In this document: positions 54,514 through 64,000 of the stretch, in pieces
Layout: each line of letters starts with the position of its first letter
Position numbering within the stretch: the first letter of the stretch is position 1
From: Sphingorhabdus sp. Alg239-R122
GTDB taxonomy: Bacteria; Pseudomonadota; Alphaproteobacteria; Sphingomonadales; Sphingomonadaceae
DNA: 64,000 nucleotides
NCBI RefSeq assembly: GCF_900537065.1
Contig: NZ_UNRC01000001.1
Coordinates: 248,001-312,000 of the forward strand
Direction: 5' to 3'
The notes under the pieces: model-generated
Databases searched by the model: none
Told to the model about the DNA's origin: nothing
Seen by the model: the letters and a program-made list of their open reading frames with translations, nothing else
Made by a program: the position numbers and the translations under genes

Positions 54514-55122
54514 ATGTCTATCAAATATTTACTTGCGTCATCCGCAATTATTTCCGCCAGTCTTTGCACGACCGCACCTGCATATGCAGGTACAGATGCA
54601 TATATCGGTGAAATTACACCCGTCGGCTTTACATTCTGCCCGCGCGCAACAACTGATGCCAATGGGCAACTTCTTGCCATTAGCCAAAACACAGCTTTGT
54701 TCTCGCTTTATGGCACAACATATGGCGGTGATGGCCGTACTACATTTGCTCTCCCCGATTTAAGGGGTCGTGCGCCCATTCATACCGGGACTGGACCCGG
54801 TCTTTCCCCGCGAACGCTTGGTTCCAGGAGCGGCACCGAAACCAACACCATGACGGTTACGCAGATGCCTTCGCATAATCACCAAGGCGGTATCCAGACT
54901 ACCAATCAGGCCGCAAACAGCAAAAATGCGAAAAGTGACGCGTTTGGCATCGCCCAGGAAAACACCTATGTGGATGGCGCGACGCCATCAGGTAATTTCA
55001 TGAATGCGAGCACGTTCCTGATTGGAAATACAGGCGGCGGACAGGCGCAGAATAATATGCAGCCATTCCTGACAATCCGCTACTGTGTTGTTTTACAGGG
55101 TATTTTCCCATCACGTAACTGA
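54514..55122 (+). CDS. Secreted phage tail-collar domain protein, copy 1
   Basis: The 202-residue protein has a Sec signal peptide (ending PAYA before GTDAYIGE) and a tail-collar domain: GFTFCPRATTDANGQLL, ALFSLYGTTYGGDGRTTFALPDLRGR and QMPSHNH. This domain occurs in phage tail fibres and in free-standing bacterial proteins such as the microcystin-dependent protein family. Two Cys frame the domain. Unlike phage proteins it carries an export signal and has no phage neighbours. It forms a tandem pair with the next gene. Function unknown. Confidence 0.82.
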   Translation: MSIKYLLASSAIISASLCTTAPAYAGTDAYIGEITPVGFTFCPRATTDANGQLLAISQNTALFSLYGTTYGGDGRTTFALPDLRGRAPIHTGTGPGLSPRTLGSRSGTETNTMTVTQMPSHNHQGGIQTTNQAANSKNAKSDAFGIAQENTYVDGATPSGNFMNASTFLIGNTGGGQAQNNMQPFLTIRYCVVLQGIFPSRN

Positions 55123-55144
55123 TGAAGACCGAAAGGACATCAAT

Positions 55145-55753
55145 ATGTCTATCAAATATTTTGTAGCGTCAGCAGCTATCATCACATCGGGTTTATCAAT
55201 TGCTGTACCCGCACAGGCCGGCACCAATCCGTATCTGGGTGAAATCACCATTGTCGGCTTTACTTTCTGTCCGCGTGGAACATCGGCCGCGGACGGAACC
55301 CTTCTTCCAATTAACAGCAACCAGGCGCTCTTTTCACTTTATGGCACAACATATGGCGGTGACGGTCGCACAACATTCGCTTTGCCGGATTTGCGTGGAC
55401 GGATTCCCATTCATGTTGGCCAGGGACCTGGCCTCACCAACCGTACGCAGGGATCCAGAAGCGGCACCGAAACGAACACCATGACGGTTGCGCAGATGCC
55501 TTCACACAATCACCAGGGCGGTATCCAGACGACCAACCAGGCCGCCGGCAGCAAGAATGCGAAAAGTGACGCGTTTGGCATCGCCCAGGAAAACACCTAT
55601 GTGAATGGCGTGGCGCCATCAGGCAATTTCATGCATGCTTCGACATTCCTGATCGGGAATACGGGCGGCGGACAGGCGCAAAATAATATGCAGCCATTCC
55701 TGACACTCCGTTATTGTGTGAATACACAGGGCACTTTCCCATCACGTAACTGA
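55145..55753 (+). CDS. Secreted phage tail-collar domain protein, copy 2
   Basis: A second 202-residue protein, colinear with copy 1 over its whole length and nearly identical through large parts (for example FSLYGTTYGGDGRTTFALPD and the NAKSDAFGIAQENTYV segment). The signal peptide is more diverged (VPAQA before GTNPYLGE). The ATG at 55145 follows a GAAAGGA ribosome-binding site 22 bases after the stop of copy 1. Near-identical DNA blocks in the 3' halves point to recent duplication or gene conversion. Confidence 0.82.
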   Translation: MSIKYFVASAAIITSGLSIAVPAQAGTNPYLGEITIVGFTFCPRGTSAADGTLLPINSNQALFSLYGTTYGGDGRTTFALPDLRGRIPIHVGQGPGLTNRTQGSRSGTETNTMTVAQMPSHNHQGGIQTTNQAAGSKNAKSDAFGIAQENTYVNGVAPSGNFMHASTFLIGNTGGGQAQNNMQPFLTLRYCVNTQGTFPSRN

Positions 55754-55777: not shown

Positions 55778-56065
55778 TTACGCAATGGTTATCAGCGCCC
55801 TTTCCTTCAGATTATGAAGCAGGTCTACCAAGTCCTGCCGACATTTTTCCTGTGATACATCATATTCGCGCAAAGTGGCGGTCACCAGTTCGTCAAAATG
55901 GTCGTGACTGTCCAGCAATTCCCATATTCTTTTGCCTGTATCGCTCAGGCTGAAAAAACGCCCGTCATCAAGGTGCATTAGAACCACCTCCCCATCGACA
56001 GTTGTTTCGACAAAATTCTCATTTTTTCTGATGCTGCTATCGCTCTTTATTTCACTCATTTCCAT
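55778..56065 (-). CDS. PqqD-like RiPP leader-binding protein (lasso B1 type)
   Basis: A 95-residue protein with the PqqD fold signature VVLMHLDDGRFFSLSDTGKRIWELLD followed by a helical HFDELVTATLREYDVSQEKC part. Free-standing PqqD-like proteins (RRE, or B1 in lasso clusters) bind the leader of RiPP precursor peptides and present it to the modifying enzymes. It is the last gene of the cyclase-kinase-sulfotransferase run, 22 bases after the sulfotransferase gene. The usual partner B2 (a transglutaminase-like leader peptidase) is not adjacent. Confidence 0.85.
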   Translation of the reverse strand: MEMSEIKSDSSIRKNENFVETTVDGEVVLMHLDDGRFFSLSDTGKRIWELLDSHDHFDELVTATLREYDVSQEKCRQDLVDLLHNLKERALITIA

Positions 56066-56087: not shown

Positions 56088-56978
56088 TCATTTCGCATAA
56101 CCTAATTTACGCATAAGCTCATGATTAACATTGTATATTTCATTCTGCAGTTCACTTGATAATTGCTCCCGTCCTTCACCGGCGCGCCCGGATCGGAAAA
56201 ATCTTTCTGCCTTTTGCGGCCGTTCCTGAAACCCTATTCTCGCTTCTTTTTCCCGCAATTTGTCGAAATGTGATTCAGCCACGGCGTGCGCCACGCGCTC
56301 TGCCATATCATCGCTTTCCAATTGCAGGAATTTTGCCATTTGCATGACGCAGGCTTCGGTATCTTCCAACATGTCTTCATAACGGATCGTCAGGACAGGA
56401 ATTTCGGTCTGTTGATGCCAGCTTTTATAGTGTCCGGCCCATCCAAAGGTCTTTTGCCGGAGTTGTGAACGCGGCCCGCCCGCCATGATATGATCGGCAC
56501 AATTCAGCTGCGCCACCGTTTTTGCAAAATCCTGATGCCCCTGATGAAAGGCATAGGAAACCGCAACATCAAGTGGGTTGCGAACCAGGTAAATTACGCC
56601 ATAGGAGCAATCCGCCGGAAAAATTGGATTACCCTGTGCATTTTCATGATACGCGTCATGAACCTTCACATAGAGCCGCTCGCTGGAATCTTTTGCGATA
56701 CTGCGGTAGGTCGCGGGCCGTAATATGTCGATTTCATCATCCGTCATGTCCGAAGATGGCAGGCCGGTCAGGTTATCGAACCGCACCCTATTACTCGAAA
56801 TAGAACCATTTAACTGTACATAATCAAGTTCGGAATCCGAAGGTTTTTCACCGACAAGGTGTGATAGCAAAATGCGGGTCCAGGTATTCCCGGATTTGGG
56901 AAACGAGGCGAGCCAGCAAATCTTGCGTATCGCATTTTGTGAGCCGCCGGCTTCAGTTTTCATCGAACTAGCCGGCAT
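56088..56978 (-). CDS. Sulfotransferase (PAPS-dependent)
   Basis: Transfers sulfate from PAPS to a hydroxyl or amine. The N-terminal phosphosulfate loop ASFPKSGNTW and the 3'-phosphate-binding stretch YLVRNPLDVAVSYAFHQG are both clear, as is the late GxxG-like RSGRAGEGRE region. It has the size of cytosolic-type sulfotransferases (about 300 residues). Start codons at 57014, 56999, 56978 and 56963 are possible; 56978 has AGG at suitable spacing, and any of the first three overlaps the kinase gene. Placed between the kinase and PqqD-like genes, it probably modifies the RiPP, most simply a Ser/Thr hydroxyl of the peptide. Confidence 0.85.
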   Translation of the reverse strand: MPASSMKTEAGGSQNAIRKICWLASFPKSGNTWTRILLSHLVGEKPSDSELDYVQLNGSISSNRVRFDNLTGLPSSDMTDDEIDILRPATYRSIAKDSSERLYVKVHDAYHENAQGNPIFPADCSYGVIYLVRNPLDVAVSYAFHQGHQDFAKTVAQLNCADHIMAGGPRSQLRQKTFGWAGHYKSWHQQTEIPVLTIRYEDMLEDTEACVMQMAKFLQLESDDMAERVAHAVAESHFDKLREKEARIGFQERPQKAERFFRSGRAGEGREQLSSELQNEIYNVNHELMRKLGYAK

Positions 56979-57912
56979 CGCTGCTGCCTGACCGGCCATC
57001 TTTACGCCAACCATCTATCCAGCTGTCAATATGGGCTGTACCCTCATCAAATACCGCCCTGTCTTTGGGCCGATCAAATATCTGCACAGATACATTGGCG
57101 ATAATACGTGCGAGTGTTTCGAAGAGTTTTTTTCTGCCCCAGATCGCTTCAGCAAAGCGTGGCCTGTACACACTTTCACGTAGGTGTTTCAGAGCCATTG
57201 CTCCAGTGACACGTTCTATTGCGAAACGTTCGTCTTTTAATCGGTCATTGCTGTTTGCAAGAATGGACAAGCTGGCCAGTTCGCCAAAACTCTGACCACC
57301 AGCATGAGCGGGTCTGGCAAAATACTTTTCAAAACCCTCCGCATCGCGAACAGCATCCATTTTTTCCGCGCCTGTAAGTTTCAGGGCATCTTTCCAGAGC
57401 TTTAGATCTTTCTGCCCGGCATAACAGCGCGTCGTCGCATCTATTTCAGCAGGATCGATGATCAGGACATCATCGGTGAAAAAATCCCGACCCCGCGCAG
57501 CAAGCGCCGCGGAAAGTGTGGATTTCCCGGCTCCAGACGGGCCTGTAAAGGCATGGACATGGCCATCTTTTATTATGGCACTGGCATGAAGAGGAAGCAA
57601 AGAGCGTTGATAGCATAACAAGCCCCATGCCGAACCCGAAAGAAACAAAGCAACATCGCGGTCAGACATGCCCCCCCTGTCATATATTACCGTATCGCCA
57701 TTACTCACAAAGAAACGTGCACCACCCGGGATGTTGAGCAGGGCCTGTGCCGGGCTGGCCATGAAAGCCACTCCGCTATGCGTGGGTTGTTCAATCTCGC
57801 CAGGCACATCCCCTTCCCGCACCATTACATCTTGCCCATGATCGACGATATATGGTTTCACCCTGGAACCCAGATCAATATCCGATCGTACCGTAAAGGG
57901 TACCTGGCGCAT
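56968..57912 (-). CDS. HPr kinase-like protein (putative lasso peptide kinase)
   Basis: A 314-residue P-loop kinase related to the catalytic domain of HPr kinase/phosphorylase. LPLHASAI precedes the Walker A GPSGAGKST (124-132), and FFTDDVL (144-150) supplies the acidic Walker-B-like pair; the N-terminal domain of true HprK is absent and replaced by another 100-residue region. Such kinases are found in lasso clusters (paeninodin type), where they phosphorylate the C-terminal Ser of the precursor. Its ATG shares one base with the stop codon of the cyclase gene (TAATG), so the two are coupled. Confidence 0.82.
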   Translation of the reverse strand: MRQVPFTVRSDIDLGSRVKPYIVDHGQDVMVREGDVPGEIEQPTHSGVAFMASPAQALLNIPGGARFFVSNGDTVIYDRGGMSDRDVALFLSGSAWGLLCYQRSLLPLHASAIIKDGHVHAFTGPSGAGKSTLSAALAARGRDFFTDDVLIIDPAEIDATTRCYAGQKDLKLWKDALKLTGAEKMDAVRDAEGFEKYFARPAHAGGQSFGELASLSILANSNDRLKDERFAIERVTGAMALKHLRESVYRPRFAEAIWGRKKLFETLARIIANVSVQIFDRPKDRAVFDEGTAHIDSWIDGWRKDGRSGSSDAG

Positions 57913-59879
57913 CAGTTTTTTCCTTCCATCCAGCGTATATACCGTGCCGTTGACACGGCGCGCATCAGGCCCGTTGTCGCCAGCAGGTAATCCGGATGAT
58001 CGCTGGCAGAAACGGGTGTTTTGTCCGGCCAGTTATCAATCAGGGCTTTGAGGCGCGGGACGTCGAACCGTCTGGACATATCGGCATCTTCCTGCATGCG
58101 TTCTATGTCCTGCCTGTATTTTGGCAAGTCGCGCGTCATCCGCATGTGCCAATCGGCGGCCTGCCGCCCACGATCGGCATGTATGATCTCGGCAGGTAAC
58201 CTGTCCTCCATCACGCGTTTGATAAGCAGCCTGTCCTTCCCGTTTTTCATAAATTGCGTATCAGGTATCGCAGCACAGAATTTGACCAGTTTTTGATCGC
58301 CGAGCGGATCGCGCGACTGGATCCCGGTAAGGGCTTGCATCGCATAATTTACCGTTTGCCCCATATCGCGCGTGCCGCCCTCACCCATGGCCTGCATCAT
58401 ACTCGGGTTATCTTTAAACCCTGCATAACTATCGTCCAGCCCAAGCTCCTTTGCCCTTTCATCGACCCGCATGTCATTGGCATATTCATGTGAGATAGCT
58501 GAATGCCCTTTCCAACCAATATGAGCCATATTGCCGCGAAGTGCCGAGATTTTACGTACGAGAGATTTGGGCAGGTTGGGTGATATCGCACGGCTGTAAA
58601 GGCCAAAAAATTGCATCCCGCGATTATCCGAACCCAGAAGTTCTCTGGATAACTGCAACAAGCGCCCCTGCCGCAATAGCTTGGCATATAAGCCGCGGCC
58701 ATTGAAACTGAGTGTCCGGTTTCCGCTGGTTCCGTTCAGAATGACATTGCGCCCTTCCTGCCTTGCAAGCTGCATGATGTTCATCACCCAGTGCAGGTTC
58801 TTGATACCGAAAGGCGGTGTTTCCGCCAGAAGGAATATTTTATCCAGGTCATGGTCAAGCGGAAGGTCGGCAGAATCAACGAAGCGCGCATCGAGCTGCG
58901 GGTATTTTTTCGCAAAGGCTTTCACTGGTGCAGACTCGTTTCCGCACCTGCGAAACCCCTGCGCCCTTCCATCCCATCCGCTGGCTGGCACAGATGTGAA
59001 GCTCACCATGCGCTCCGCCAGATCATGGTCATTCGTATCCAGGTAAGCCAGAGCCTCTGCCACGACTGATGTGGAATCCAGTCCCGAGCTCAGCGTCGCA
59101 GCCGGGGTTTTACACGCACGCATACAACTCGCGACCGCCCGCGAGAACAATTCGCGCGCCGCTTCGACATAATCCGCATCTTTCACATAATGGATTCTGG
59201 AAACACCTGAGAGGTCAAAATGGCGTGAAACACTTATGGTGTCGCGGGCTGCCACCAGCAGGTGCCCGAGCGGAAGCGATTTGATATTTTTATAGAAACT
59301 TCTCTCCGCGTCCTGATTGTTCAGGATAAGGCTGTCAGCGATCTTCTGCTCGTCAAGTTCGCGGGAAATGTCCCCCAGCGCGAATATAGCCTTTGGAGCG
59401 CTTCCCAACACCAATCTTTGGCTGCTTTCATGATAAAATAGCGGTGGAGCATTCCCATGCGAACGCACCGCATAGACTCTGCTCGCATCCGTATCGCAAA
59501 CGATAACAGCATATTCGCCGTATAAATGCTCAACAAACCGAGTTTCCCATTTCTGGAATGCCGTGTGAACCAAAGCGCTATCCGGCATTGCTTTCAGACG
59601 TGCGTTTTCAATGCCCAGTTTTGCGCCCAATTCTTCACGGTGCATCAGGAAACCCGAAAATATACACGGCCATTTCCCCGCGGCTGACACGGGTTGCACA
59701 TCATATTTATCTTCGGGTGTAAAATGCGGAGCCTGCGCCCAGCATAGGCCCAAATTGCCAAATTGCCGGGTACTCTGCTTCACTGGGCCATATAAACGCA
59801 GCGCATTGCACATTCTTTGCAGGTAATCAGCCGTCACTGATGCGCCATCACGCTGGAATATTGCCGCCAATCCGCTCAT
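57912..59879 (-). CDS. Asparagine synthetase-like lasso cyclase
   Basis: A 655-residue member of the asparagine synthetase B family. The N-terminal glutaminase-like domain starts MSGLAAIFQRDG and lacks the catalytic Cys2, as in lasso peptide cyclases of proteobacteria. The ATP-pyrophosphatase loop LSSGLDSTS is at about 263-271. Typical late elements are GTSGNRTLS, SRDPLGDQKLVKF, KDRLLIKRVMEDRLP and ADRGRQAADW. Lasso cyclases adenylate the side-chain carboxylate of an Asp/Glu in the core and let the N-terminal amine attack it. The open frame extends to a GTG at 59963 and an ATG at 59957; I chose 59879 because the conserved domain begins there, though its ribosome-binding site is poor. The precursor gene lies divergently upstream. 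Confidence 0.8.
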   Translation of the reverse strand: MSGLAAIFQRDGASVTADYLQRMCNALRLYGPVKQSTRQFGNLGLCWAQAPHFTPEDKYDVQPVSAAGKWPCIFSGFLMHREELGAKLGIENARLKAMPDSALVHTAFQKWETRFVEHLYGEYAVIVCDTDASRVYAVRSHGNAPPLFYHESSQRLVLGSAPKAIFALGDISRELDEQKIADSLILNNQDAERSFYKNIKSLPLGHLLVAARDTISVSRHFDLSGVSRIHYVKDADYVEAARELFSRAVASCMRACKTPAATLSSGLDSTSVVAEALAYLDTNDHDLAERMVSFTSVPASGWDGRAQGFRRCGNESAPVKAFAKKYPQLDARFVDSADLPLDHDLDKIFLLAETPPFGIKNLHWVMNIMQLARQEGRNVILNGTSGNRTLSFNGRGLYAKLLRQGRLLQLSRELLGSDNRGMQFFGLYSRAISPNLPKSLVRKISALRGNMAHIGWKGHSAISHEYANDMRVDERAKELGLDDSYAGFKDNPSMMQAMGEGGTRDMGQTVNYAMQALTGIQSRDPLGDQKLVKFCAAIPDTQFMKNGKDRLLIKRVMEDRLPAEIIHADRGRQAADWHMRMTRDLPKYRQDIERMQEDADMSRRFDVPRLKALIDNWPDKTPVSASDHPDYLLATTGLMRAVSTARYIRWMEGKN

Positions 59880-60041
59880 AGATAATGCATACAAATATTG
59901 CACGGTTTTACAATGCGCAAATGCATGTAGCTCCCAGAAAACAGGAGTTTGTACCATACTCACTTCAGTTGAAGCTGATAGCAGTTTACAAATGTAAAAT
60001 TCTGTCCTAGTTTATGGTATTTACAACATGGGGTGCATGAT

Positions 60042-60176
60042 ATGGATAAGAAAGAAAAACGTGTAGAGGCCAGGGCATGGAAAAAGCCTGAAGTCGTGGA
60101 CGTCGATGCCTCACCAAGCGATGTAAAGAGTGCAGTTGGGCCAAGCGCTGACTTTACTGGCGGCACAACCAGTTGA
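60042..60176 (+). CDS. Putative lasso peptide precursor (44 residues)
   Basis: A 44-codon gene whose product is highly charged at first (MDKKEKRVEARAW), contains a leader motif W13-x2-P16-x-V18, and ends in a small-residue tail. In lasso leaders the Y-x2-P-x-L motif recognised by B1 has its Pro at -14; applying that spacing puts the cut after Lys29 and gives the core SAVGPSADFTGGTTS. Core residue 8 is Asp, exactly where an 8-member macrolactam with Ser1 would close; position -2 is Val28, near-isosteric with the usual Thr. The last residue is Ser, the target type of lasso kinases. It sits in a divergent position to the cyclase gene and is followed by a strong hairpin. A GTG three codons upstream is an alternative start. 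Confidence 0.65.
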   Translation: MDKKEKRVEARAWKKPEVVDVDASPSDVKSAVGPSADFTGGTTS

Positions 60177-60307: not shown

Positions 60308-63300
60308 TTGCACAACATTTTCAGTCGCGAGATTTTCAACCGTGAAATTCCCGACCGCGATTGGCGCATCCATATCGCGATCACTGCCATCATCATCCTG
60401 GCATTCAGCTTCTGGCTCAGTTCGCGCTATCCTGCCCTAAACGAAAAAGCGATGATGGGCGGAGACACCCCATTATCCGGCCTTTCATTCGATACAGTAT
60501 ACGAAATACTGCCAAATAGTGGATTATGGTGGGAACTGACCGCCAATGTCGTCAACTGGATATCCACCAATATAAAGGGCATGACGTTTGGCGTCCTGTT
60601 CGGCGCGGCAGCGCTGACATTACTGTCACTTGTCAAGAAAAGGTCATTTGAAGGCGCATTTGCGAATTCGGCGCTGGGCACAGTGATCGGAGCACCGCTT
60701 GGAGTGTGCGTGAATTGCGCCGTGCCAATCGCCATGGGATTGCATCTTGGCCGAATGCGCCTTGAGACCACACTGTCGGCACTGCTTGCTTCTCCTACCC
60801 TTAACGTCATTGTGGTTACAATGAGCTTTGCACTTTTGCCGATACATCTAGCCGTCATCAAATTGCTACTGGCGCTTGTACTCGTCATGCTCGTCATTCC
60901 GCTTTTATGCAAATACGTACTAATTAGCGAGACCGATGCGACCCGTCATGATGCGGCACAGTTTGCCGGAATATCAGAAGCAAAGGGCTTTACGGCATGG
61001 ATCGCAAAGGCCCTGACACCTGTGGATGCCCAGCCCGGGCCTCACACACCACTGTCCGCACTGCTATGGTTTATCCGCACATACGCCCGCAGTTTCTTTT
61101 TCATTTTCATCATCACCGTGCCCATGATGCTGCTTGCTGCCTTGCTGGGGGCGATTGTGGCAACATTTGCATCCCCCACCGAACTGCTTGGCCTGTTTCC
61201 CAGGGGGTCAGTCGCCCTTGTCCTGCTAGCGATGTTGGTCACGGCTTTTATTGCCAGCTTTGTCCCAGCGCCCATTGCGCTTGATGTTATCCTGACAACT
61301 ATCCTGATCAATATCGGGATGCGTGATGACTATGCGACAGCAGCTCTGATCGGCCTTGGATCTTTCAGCGTCTATGCTTTCATAATATTATGGAAAGTCA
61401 TATCATTACGTACGGCCATAACATTATGGGTCGCTGTAATTGCGATGGCCATGGTGGGTGGTATACTGGCAAATCTGGTTAATCCCAGTGTCAAAAAATA
61501 TTATGCCTTTCAACAGATATCTGCGCTCAATTCAGTGGCGAAAATTGATTGGCCCGTGCCGCCCAAAATAACTGATGGCCAAAGCCTTTCCGAACTTGCT
61601 CCCCTGCTCAAAAAACAAACCCCTGTTATGACACCGGTTGATGCACAAATCACAAGTGACAGAGGCAGCGCAGTTACTATCACCCGCAGTGATTTCACTC
61701 TTCCATCAGCATCTAATCGCAGCTCTGCCACAGTGCCTTTTGCGCGTATCGTGGGTCCAGAAATAGGCCTTGATGAGATAGGCCTGAATTCCCCTATCCG
61801 GGAGTTTGGTTATTACATGATGCGCGGCGCCATCGCTGCTGACGATGTGCATGGCGATGGCTGGCCGGATATCGTGACACGGCGACCTGATCATGCAAAA
61901 GGACTTTCGCTCTACGCCAATATCGGCGGTAGGTTCACGCGGCAGAAACTTGACCTCGGCATCATTGATGAAAGTGAGGTTTTTAACCTTGCGCTTGCGG
62001 ATATGAATGGCGATGGCCTGCCCGAACTCTTTGTGTCCACCATTATGAATGGTGATTATATTTTCTATAATCAGGGGGGTGATTTTAATACCCGCGAGAT
62101 GGTTCAGCTTTCCAAACCATCGCCGGCAGTCATCAACAGCTTCGCCTTTGCCGATATGGATCAAGATGGAGATGTCGATCTCATCGCTGGTAAATGGGGG
62201 CCACGCGGCATAGCAGAAGGATGGAAATTACGTCCATTGCATATCCGCAACCAGATATTCTGGAACCTTGGTAACAAACAGTTTGAAATGCAGATAATGC
62301 CCGGCGTACCCGGCCAAACACTCAGCAGTATCATCAGCGACTTTAACGGCGATGGCTATCTGGATTATTTCAATGCGGATGATGCGGGTTTTTCAGACGG
62401 AGTCACTTTTTTCGGAAAGAATGGAGTTATTAGGGAATCTGGCATCGAAACCCAGCCCTTTCCCTATCACACTCGCTCCAGCATGAGCTATGATCAGGGC
62501 GACTGGAACGGGGATTTACGCACCGATTATTATGGTGCGCAAATTGCCATAGGAACCGCGGGAAATGTCAACAAAACCCGGCCTTCACGGAACCGGACCA
62601 TATTTGAAATATGTGCGCAGTTCGGAAAAGATCTGAAATGGGGTGAAACTCACATCAAAGCCTGCGCGCAGGATTTGCTATCCATGGATGCTGTGCGCAG
62701 TTCCAAAAGCGGTAAAGGCCTGGACAGCTGCAAACGCCCGATTCTGGCAAGAGACAGAGCCCTATGCGGCGCAGCCAGCATCTTTCCCGACCATGAAAAT
62801 AGTAGCCGCACAAGATCTGGTGATACGGAAAGGTTCAAGAGCTGTGAGAAGCTGCTGGAGCATATACCCGTCATCAAGATTCATTGTGCATCACTTTTAA
62901 CGCCAGCTGATCCACCTATTAGTAAAGAGAAAATGCGCCAGCTATTCCGGCCCGGCTTTACTAATGGCAACATATTGATGACCGCTGCTCCAGATGGCAG
63001 CTTCGTAGATGCAGGCGGCAATGCGAATGTCCGCTCCCCTGGCTGGAGTTGGAACAGCAAGTTTATTGACCTTGATCAGGATAGCCGGCTCGATCTTCTT
63101 GTTATGACAGGCATCTGGCTCAATTCCGCATCGTCGACCACTAACATATTCTATCACAATAATGGCCAAGCTTTTACTGAGGCAACAACACAGTACGGGT
63201 TTTATGACCTGGCCCCTTCATACAGCTATGTCTCGCTCGATTATGACCGCGATGGCGATATTGATATTGTGCGCGATAACGCTTCGCTTCGCATGATCCT

Positions 63301-63613
63301 ACACCGCAATGACAAACCTGCAGGACCAGCCCTTTTTGTGAAACTGCGCGACAGTAAAGGCAATAGTCAGGGCATTGGTGCACACGTAGCGATCTGTGTT
63401 GATGGTGAAACCACTGCAAAGCCTGGAAAGTGTCAAATACGCAATATCAAAGCCAGCGGTGGGTATATGTCAAGCGATCCAATCCGAGCTCATTTCGGTT
63501 TGGGAAAGGCCAGATCCGTGTCACTTATCGAGGTAAAGTGGTCTGATGGCGAGTCGACAAGAATTTTACCAAAACAGCTTTTGGCAGGCCAAATCACGAT
63601 CCGGAAAAACTAG
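60308..63613 (+). CDS. Permease fused to FG-GAP/ASPIC repeat protein
   Basis: An 1101-residue two-part protein. Residues about 20-400 hold eight to ten membrane helices with a permease pattern of the ArsP/DUF318 type, including LGVCVNCAVPIAMGL and ASPTLNVIVVTMSF. After a linker, residues about 480-1000 contain FG-GAP/VCBS-type Ca-binding repeats (DVHGDGWPD, DMNGDGLPE, DMDQDGDVD, DFNGDGYLD, DLDQDSRLD, DYDRDGDID) with a Cys-rich insertion near 760-870. The end (about 1010-1095) is an ASPIC/UnbV-like domain (GIGAHVAIC, SDPIRAHFGLG, VKWSDGES). The start appears to be TTG 60308 with a weak AGG. The repeat half is probably outside the cytoplasm. It lies between the precursor and an ABC exporter; a role in peptide export, immunity or display is only an inference. 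Confidence 0.75.
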   Translation: MHNIFSREIFNREIPDRDWRIHIAITAIIILAFSFWLSSRYPALNEKAMMGGDTPLSGLSFDTVYEILPNSGLWWELTANVVNWISTNIKGMTFGVLFGAAALTLLSLVKKRSFEGAFANSALGTVIGAPLGVCVNCAVPIAMGLHLGRMRLETTLSALLASPTLNVIVVTMSFALLPIHLAVIKLLLALVLVMLVIPLLCKYVLISETDATRHDAAQFAGISEAKGFTAWIAKALTPVDAQPGPHTPLSALLWFIRTYARSFFFIFIITVPMMLLAALLGAIVATFASPTELLGLFPRGSVALVLLAMLVTAFIASFVPAPIALDVILTTILINIGMRDDYATAALIGLGSFSVYAFIILWKVISLRTAITLWVAVIAMAMVGGILANLVNPSVKKYYAFQQISALNSVAKIDWPVPPKITDGQSLSELAPLLKKQTPVMTPVDAQITSDRGSAVTITRSDFTLPSASNRSSATVPFARIVGPEIGLDEIGLNSPIREFGYYMMRGAIAADDVHGDGWPDIVTRRPDHAKGLSLYANIGGRFTRQKLDLGIIDESEVFNLALADMNGDGLPELFVSTIMNGDYIFYNQGGDFNTREMVQLSKPSPAVINSFAFADMDQDGDVDLIAGKWGPRGIAEGWKLRPLHIRNQIFWNLGNKQFEMQIMPGVPGQTLSSIISDFNGDGYLDYFNADDAGFSDGVTFFGKNGVIRESGIETQPFPYHTRSSMSYDQGDWNGDLRTDYYGAQIAIGTAGNVNKTRPSRNRTIFEICAQFGKDLKWGETHIKACAQDLLSMDAVRSSKSGKGLDSCKRPILARDRALCGAASIFPDHENSSRTRSGDTERFKSCEKLLEHIPVIKIHCASLLTPADPPISKEKMRQLFRPGFTNGNILMTAAPDGSFVDAGGNANVRSPGWSWNSKFIDLDQDSRLDLLVMTGIWLNSASSTTNIFYHNNGQAFTEATTQYGFYDLAPSYSYVSLDYDRDGDIDIVRDNASLRMILHRNDKPAGPALFVKLRDSKGNSQGIGAHVAICVDGETTAKPGKCQIRNIKASGGYMSSDPIRAHFGLGKARSVSLIEVKWSDGESTRILPKQLLAGQITIRKN

Positions 63614-63626
63614 CCAAATAGCGTAA

Positions 63627-64000
63627 TTATTCTTGAACGATGACATGGCCATCTTGCGTTATAGACAGGGAATAATTGGAAAATTTAGCTGGCTGCGCAG
63701 AATGACTAATAAGAATGACTGGTTTTCTCTGCGCAATTTTTGCGAGATTTTTGACAATTATACCCTCCACTGCGGAGTCGACGGCAGAGGTGGCCTCATC
63801 AACTATCAATATCGATGAGGGGCGCAGCAAAGCCCTTGCCAAGCATAAGCGTTGCCTCTCACCACCCGACAGACGATTGCCGCCATCCTGTAGTGCATGA
63901 TCAAGTCCATCTGACAGGCCTTTCACAAGATCGCCTGCAGCTGCTGCTTCCAAAGCAACCCATATTTCCCGCTCGGTTACTTCAGCATTGGGCCAGCACA
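63627..64000 (-). CDS. ABC transporter, ATP-binding end (partial)
   Basis: The frame is open to the right edge; the visible 120 or so residues are the C-terminal part of an ABC ATPase with signature LSGGERQRLCLARALL, Walker B SSILIVDEATSAVDS and the switch His in ILISHS. The wording is that of exporter-type (fused membrane/ATPase) proteins as used in RiPP export and immunity. It faces the FG-GAP fusion gene tail to tail with 13 bases between. In lasso clusters such a gene (D) exports the mature peptide. Confidence 0.88.
   Translation of the reverse strand, partial: CWPNAEVTEREIWVALEAAAAGDLVKGLSDGLDHALQDGGNRLSGGERQRLCLARALLRPSSILIVDEATSAVDSAVEGIIVKNLAKIAQRKPVILISHSAQPAKFSNYSLSITQDGHVIVQE

Follow-up and report, generated by a model that had tools for sequence, protein, structure and literature searches.

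The 44 aa open reading frame at 60042-60176, proposed by the first-pass annotation as an unannotated precursor gene, is under protein-level selection and part of a lasso cluster in which spacings and enzyme motifs are conserved; that it is a real kinase-type lasso precursor is well supported by neighbourhood, conservation and geometry. We judge it quite probable that the frame is the gene for the precursor (A) from which a class II lasso peptide of the kinase type is matured by the full pathway proposed below. The window, i.e. the whole 64 kb stretch of DNA analysed, corresponds to C1:248001-312000 of a 2.5 Mb genome, and the precursor gene is laid out in it as follows:

59880..60041, no strand: divergent intergenic region from the probable start of the cyclase (ATG 59879) to the precursor, 82.7% identical to that of L035
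60042-60176, plus strand: precursor ORF, ATG at 60042, stop codon at 60174-60176, 44 aa, translation MDKKEKRVEARAWKKPEVVDVDASPSDVKSAVGPSADFTGGTTS
60042..60128, plus strand: leader of the precursor (residues 1-29), carrying W13-x2-P16-x-V18 and, at predicted position -2, V28; conserved in L035 and relatives
60129..60176, plus strand: predicted core SAVGPSADFTGGTTS and stop codon, with a predicted Ser1-Asp8 ring and a C-terminal Ser

Translation might start earlier, at an in-frame GTG (60033), and no consensus promoter or terminator was found around the gene, the divergent intergenic region included.

In L035, an uncultured Sphingomonadaceae record of the same genus, the ORF MDKKEESVETKVWKKPEVIDVDASPSDVESAAGPSADFTGGTTS lies in the same slot. 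The two precursors differ at 8 residues, of which 7 belong to the leader, and their 29 base differences are distributed 5/3/21 by codon position; within the 15-residue core, 12 base changes result in a single residue change. The dN/dS ratio is about 0.035, a rough figure since dS is saturated. Homologues are found in the same slot in two more genera, between the FG-GAP permease and the cyclase, one in L041 (a different genus; tblastn E 2e-5) and one in L039, where the acid lies one residue further on. The first-pass annotation had made its reading depend on homologous clusters conserving this frame; L035, L041 and L039 all do. Besides, the full lasso pattern ([YW]x2Px[LVI], T/I/V 12 residues past the Pro, an acid 9 further on and a C-terminal Ser) is matched by this ORF alone in the 64 kb window, while in 150 Markov-shuffled windows it occurs 0.07 times per 64 kb without the Ser requirement and never with it.

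A chance ORF was rejected on the codon-position pattern of the differences and on the shuffled-window counts. That the frame arose by chance and the true precursor lies elsewhere might be argued from two relatives, G165 and G308, in which no precursor adjoins the cyclase cluster and those present are located at other places. However, the low dN/dS with a nearly unchanged core contradicts a chance frame, as do the homologues in the same slot and the absence of the full pattern from every shuffled window, and the window's genome holds no second precursor match, so that we consider this explanation negligible. In that genome two profiles (A1 and A2, described below) returned the window's own precursor only, and a query with a single sequence returned two matches, one strong and the other weak (E 0.2, within a 115-aa frame). 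No NCBIfam or Pfam model of known precursor families matches the window precursor, nor does any plasmid record.

The precursor is surrounded by a complete A, B1, B2, C, D, K lasso set. Cyclase, HPr-type kinase, sulfotransferase and PqqD protein lie in the window, all on the minus strand and divergent from the precursor, B2 and an NTP_transf_5 protein lie just outside, and the ABC exporter spans the edge:

54514..55753, plus strand: two secreted-looking Phage-Tail-Collar proteins (PF07484), syntenic
55778..56065, minus strand: B1, PqqD-like leader-binding protein (PF05402; NF033536 at 65.5 bits, cut-off 80; nearest solved structure TbiB1)
56088..57014, minus strand: PAPS-type sulfotransferase (PF00685, E 5.5e-24; motifs conserved; nearest solved structures Teg14, Teg12 and StaL)
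56968..57912, minus strand: HPr-kinase-related peptide kinase (TIGR04352, E 2e-9, below cut-off; H..GxxGxGKS..DD motif conserved)
57912..59963, minus strand: lasso cyclase, asparagine-synthase-like (PF00733, PF13537; NF033535, E 1e-65, below its cut-off)
60308..63613, plus strand: ArsP-permease/FG-GAP/UnbV fusion, 1101 aa, directly downstream of the precursor
63627..64000, minus strand: C-terminal end of the ABC exporter (D), cut by the window edge; whole gene at L002:9628-11403
L002:11400-11870, directly after the ABC exporter: B2 leader peptidase (PF13471)
L002:11941-12960, after B2 and outside the window: NTP_transf_5 protein

The cyclase lacks the glutaminase Cys and retains the SSGLDS (ATP) motif, as a lasso cyclase should. 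Its ORF is open to 59963, but the true start is probably the ATG at 59879, because the alignment with other cyclases begins at MSGLAAIF and because L035 has an in-frame TAA in the matched stretch, its ORF beginning only past this codon. PF05402 and PF13471 score above cut-off in B1 and B2, B2 retains its Cys and His motifs, and throughout the clade kinase, B2 and sulfotransferase all have intact catalytic motifs. The HPr-kinase homologue with its H..GxxGxGKS..DD motif, together with the C-terminal Ser44 of the precursor, places the cluster in the kinase type. When genome contigs were scanned by cyclase patterns, L035 alone was recovered. The sulfotransferase had gone unmentioned in the first-pass annotation, and B2 falls outside the window.

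Two further kinds of genes accompany the clusters. The ArsP-permease/FG-GAP/UnbV fusion adjoins the precursor or the cyclase also in L035, L039, L041 and L148; it is shortened in L042 (4725-5738), where only its first and last parts match and where a second sulfotransferase and two kinase genes lie nearby. Pairs or triplets of Phage-Tail-Collar genes accompany precursors in L035, L036, L041, L128, L136 and L148, also away from the cyclase.

A profile built from 8 precursors (A1) was searched in 398 genomes of the family and matched 15 of them, 5 of which gave at least four matches. A second, wider profile (A2), built from 26 precursors, was searched in 20 chosen genomes; this search is not independent of the former, because the 26 rows include dispersed sequences found with A1. 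A2 gave 11 matches in G483, 9 in G165, 8 in G231, 6 in G308 and 5 in G586, one or two each in G000, G074, G175, G319, G347, G519 and G472, one in G314 (inside a 440-aa frame) and none in G194, G405, G012, G019, G025, G244 and G299. Matches within long frames (G405, G314, L074/L147 and some weaker ones) were left out of the precursor counts. The W-x2-P-x-V motif recognised at first pass holds well, with Trp13 and Pro16 invariant in the first 8 sequences. We aligned 51 matches on the leader Pro, a set in which neighbouring lasso groups are also represented by a few sequences (L049, L157-L161). Two residues past the Pro there is Leu, Val or Ile in 49 of the 51, twelve past it Ile or Val in 37, and twenty-one past it Asp or Glu in 34. 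Precursors with the acid at +20 mostly have a leader shorter by one residue, and in these, by eye, the Val/Ile-to-acid spacing stays 9; it is 10 in about seven precursors, again by eye. The C-terminal residue is Ser in 50 sequences and Thr in one. Altogether, about 45 related precursors share Trp(-17), Pro(-14), Val/Ile(-2), Asp8 and the C-terminal Ser. The alignment of relatives that had been suggested as a check on Pro16, Val28, Asp37 and Ser44 thus agrees with the precursor assignment: Pro16 and (in the first 8 sequences) Asp37 are invariant, position 28 is Val or Ile, and the C-terminal Ser is kept.

A cut after Lys29, as initially predicted, would give the leader the register W(-17), P(-14), V(-12), V(-2), which is that of BsfA (Y-17, P-14, L-12, I-2, Asp8), whose cut was shown experimentally to lie two residues past Ile(-2) (PMC10368454). 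With Val28 at -2, the core would be Ser30-Ser44 and Asp37 its residue 8. The window precursor lacks the Thr(-2) of lasso precursors, and the Val noticed in its place is not a one-off, most relatives having Val or Ile at this position; Ile/Val(-2) in Sphingomonadales precursors has been reported in silico (PMC10368454). Since Ile(-2) is processed in BsfA, the missing Thr is not disqualifying. In clusters L166, L175, L193 and L196 Thr replaces Val/Ile, and by eye the 9-residue spacing to the Asp is the same. The cut after Lys29 and the predicted Ser1-Asp8 ring are supported but not proven.

B2 might instead cut the same lasso precursor after Ser30, in which case the core would be AVGPSADFTGGTTS and the ring, Ala1-Asp7, would have seven residues. 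What speaks for this is the residue that follows Ser30, which is Gly in 18, Ser in 8 and Ala in 7 of the 51 matches, all typical first residues of lasso cores, the preceding position often being Asn. The BsfA cleavage two residues past the Ile (PMC10368454) argues against it, as do the Thr(-2) relatives with their 9-residue spacing and the approximately seven precursors with a spacing of 10, which would have 8- and 9-residue rings under the cut after Lys29. We clearly favour the cut after Lys29 over the cut one residue later, which we regard as unlikely. Of the initial description, the leader spacing, which is also that of BsfA, and Phe9 as the lone bulky residue stand, whereas Ser as residue 1 is uncertain and depends on the cut site, Gly often following in relatives; Asp37, placed at core position 8, would be at 7 with the rival cut.

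A Tyr of B1 has been linked to Thr(-2) recognition (PMC10368454). At the apparently matching column, located by eye, the window has Phe (GRFFSL), and so have most Val/Ile(-2) clusters, others of them having Leu or Met; the Thr(-2) clusters L175, L193 and L196 have Tyr there. This is no strict link, since BsfB1 keeps the Tyr despite Ile(-2).

We infer every chemical step of the proposed pathway from sequence. The PqqD protein would bind the W-x2-P-x-V leader, and the kinase would phosphorylate the C-terminal Ser44 (core Ser15) of the linear precursor, the C-terminal Ser being the site phosphorylated by PadeK, ThcoK and SyanK (PMC9266682). B2 would then cleave after Lys29, recognising Val28 at -2; the cyclase would adenylate Asp37 and join it to the Ser30 amine, closing an eight-residue ring through which the tail FTGGTTS would thread; and the ABC protein would export the product. 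The sulfotransferase probably sulfates a core Ser/Thr hydroxyl, or a sugar set on the phosphate by the NTP_transf_5 protein. The target of this enzyme is our guess; the core has no Tyr and, beyond the Thr/Ser-Ser end, no conserved single sulfation site stands out. This pathway is suggested by the selection on the frame, the synteny, the full enzyme set and its motifs, the BsfA register, the Thr(-2) relatives and the C-terminal Ser. The points against it are the unusual Ser1, followed by a position that is Gly in 18 of the 51 matches, the cyclase and kinase scores below the NCBIfam cut-offs and the lack of any precursor model that matches.

Alternatively, the peptide could be modified and cut but unthreaded. 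It would then be a phospho/sulfo-peptide, branched-cyclic or linear, that serves some other purpose, such as signalling through the FG-GAP permease or the collar proteins, genes for which recur beside precursors. A steric lock is indeed not obvious, because the core is small and its single bulky residue, Phe9, is just outside the ring. We nevertheless hold an unthreaded product to be distinctly improbable, as cyclase, B1 and B2 are of the lasso type with their motifs kept and the acid stands at a fixed spacing.

The clade of the window's cluster carries a sulfotransferase in addition to the kinase. In a tree of 65 cyclases the window's falls in a fully supported group of 11, and a sulfotransferase is present in 10 of these clusters, the eleventh being a fragment outside the sulfotransferase scan. 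Four further clusters with a sulfotransferase belong to a neighbouring cyclase group, which also holds clusters with none detected. Lasso kinases and an NTP-transferase have been characterised (PMC9266682), and a sulfotransferase gene has been mentioned for Firmicutes clusters, without a product (PMC8498205). We found no sulfated lasso peptide in the searchable literature, no case of a lasso sulfotransferase named in the titles or abstracts of the papers found, and no report of lasso peptides with tail-collar proteins; this silence is weak evidence of novelty, since most subscription papers are outside the coverage of the search.

Paeninodin has Thr at -2, where the window precursor has Val. 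The paeninodin / SyanA phospho-lasso group shares with the window an HPr-kinase homologue in the cluster and the C-terminal Ser (PMC9266682, PMC8498205), the sulfotransferase being an addition of the window cluster. The bsf cluster of Bradymonas sediminis (BsfA, BsfK) shares Ile/Val(-2), the -17/-14/-12/-2 leader register and Asp8, as well as separate B1 and B2, kinase, NTP-transferase, ABC exporter and a bordering FG-GAP gene (PMC10368454). In contrast, core Ser3 is the residue that BsfK phosphorylates, and BsfA has a C-terminal Asp, while in the window it is the C-terminal Ser that is conserved and core position 3 is Val, a residue that varies in relatives; bsf as described has no sulfotransferase (PMC10368454). 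Pseudomycoidin (PsmK, PsmN) shares a kinase and a nucleotidyltransferase-type gene, the latter adding hexoses to the phosphorylated Ser, and the review mentions no sulfotransferase for it (PMC9266682); the corresponding activity of the window's NTP_transf_5 protein is putative. As Val/Ile(-2) is already described for Sphingomonadales, the precursor is ordinary in kind; the sulfotransferase and the dispersed relatives raise the case above routine.

In a sister branch, found in other genera of the family, about 30 clusters have precursors with Gln at core position 8 (in-cluster precursors at L047, L051, L052, L055, L161 and L163-L201; examples GPVGSGFQAGPNRRS, GPIGFGTQAGPNARS and GPNNTGGQGGKS). 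A lasso core should carry Asp or Glu at this position. About eight of these precursors also have Asp at 7 or 9. Most of the Gln8 cyclases form one well supported group, and those of L055 and L198 fall in a neighbouring group together with Asp8 clusters. The branch raises the question of how the ring could close.

In five genomes (G165, G308, G231, G483 and G586) precursors of the window's family are scattered among housekeeping genes, with 5 to 11 matches per genome, and orphan precursors lie far from the cyclase (L128-L146, L149-L156). G165 and G308 each have one cyclase of the window's type, no precursor found beside it and precursor matches at many other places. The neighbours of dispersed precursors were mostly named by eye from sequence. 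At L139, L154 and L155, in three genera, an orphan precursor is flanked on one side by a typA-like gene and on the other by a gene for a TPR protein with a 2OG-Fe(II) oxygenase domain (PF13759), possibly an extra tailoring enzyme. Others lie near ribosomal genes (L143, by eye) or near an aldehyde-dehydrogenase-like gene (L144 and L151, by eye); the latter two, at the same site in two species, differ at 7/8/26 bases by codon position and are therefore kept as protein. Tail-Collar genes are directly upstream of the precursor at L128, L136 and L148. Most 10-kb stretches around dispersed precursors hold no homologue of a cluster enzyme; the exceptions are L148, L157, L158 and L161, which are clusters, L153 with a distant asparagine-synthase-like gene, and L131 and L135 with weakly similar ABC genes.

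In prochlorosins, which are lanthipeptides, one enzyme set serves many precursor genes scattered over the chromosome. Similar dispersal is seen in the window's relatives, although the chemistry is unrelated and the window's own genome has one precursor match. A single enzyme set may process the dispersed precursors. Tentatively, and with somewhat less than even confidence, we suggest that this would yield a whole library of lasso peptides with phosphate and sulfate groups, a system of which the window organism would have a one-precursor version; no scattered or multiple lasso precursors are named in the titles or abstracts of the papers found. The cluster offers a testable case of a lasso peptide that is perhaps sulfated as well as phosphorylated; the nearest solved relatives of its sulfotransferase (Teg14, Teg12, StaL) act on glycopeptide antibiotics. 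Mining confined to the cyclase neighbourhood would miss most or all of the peptides of such genomes, in two of which no precursor was found beside the cyclase.
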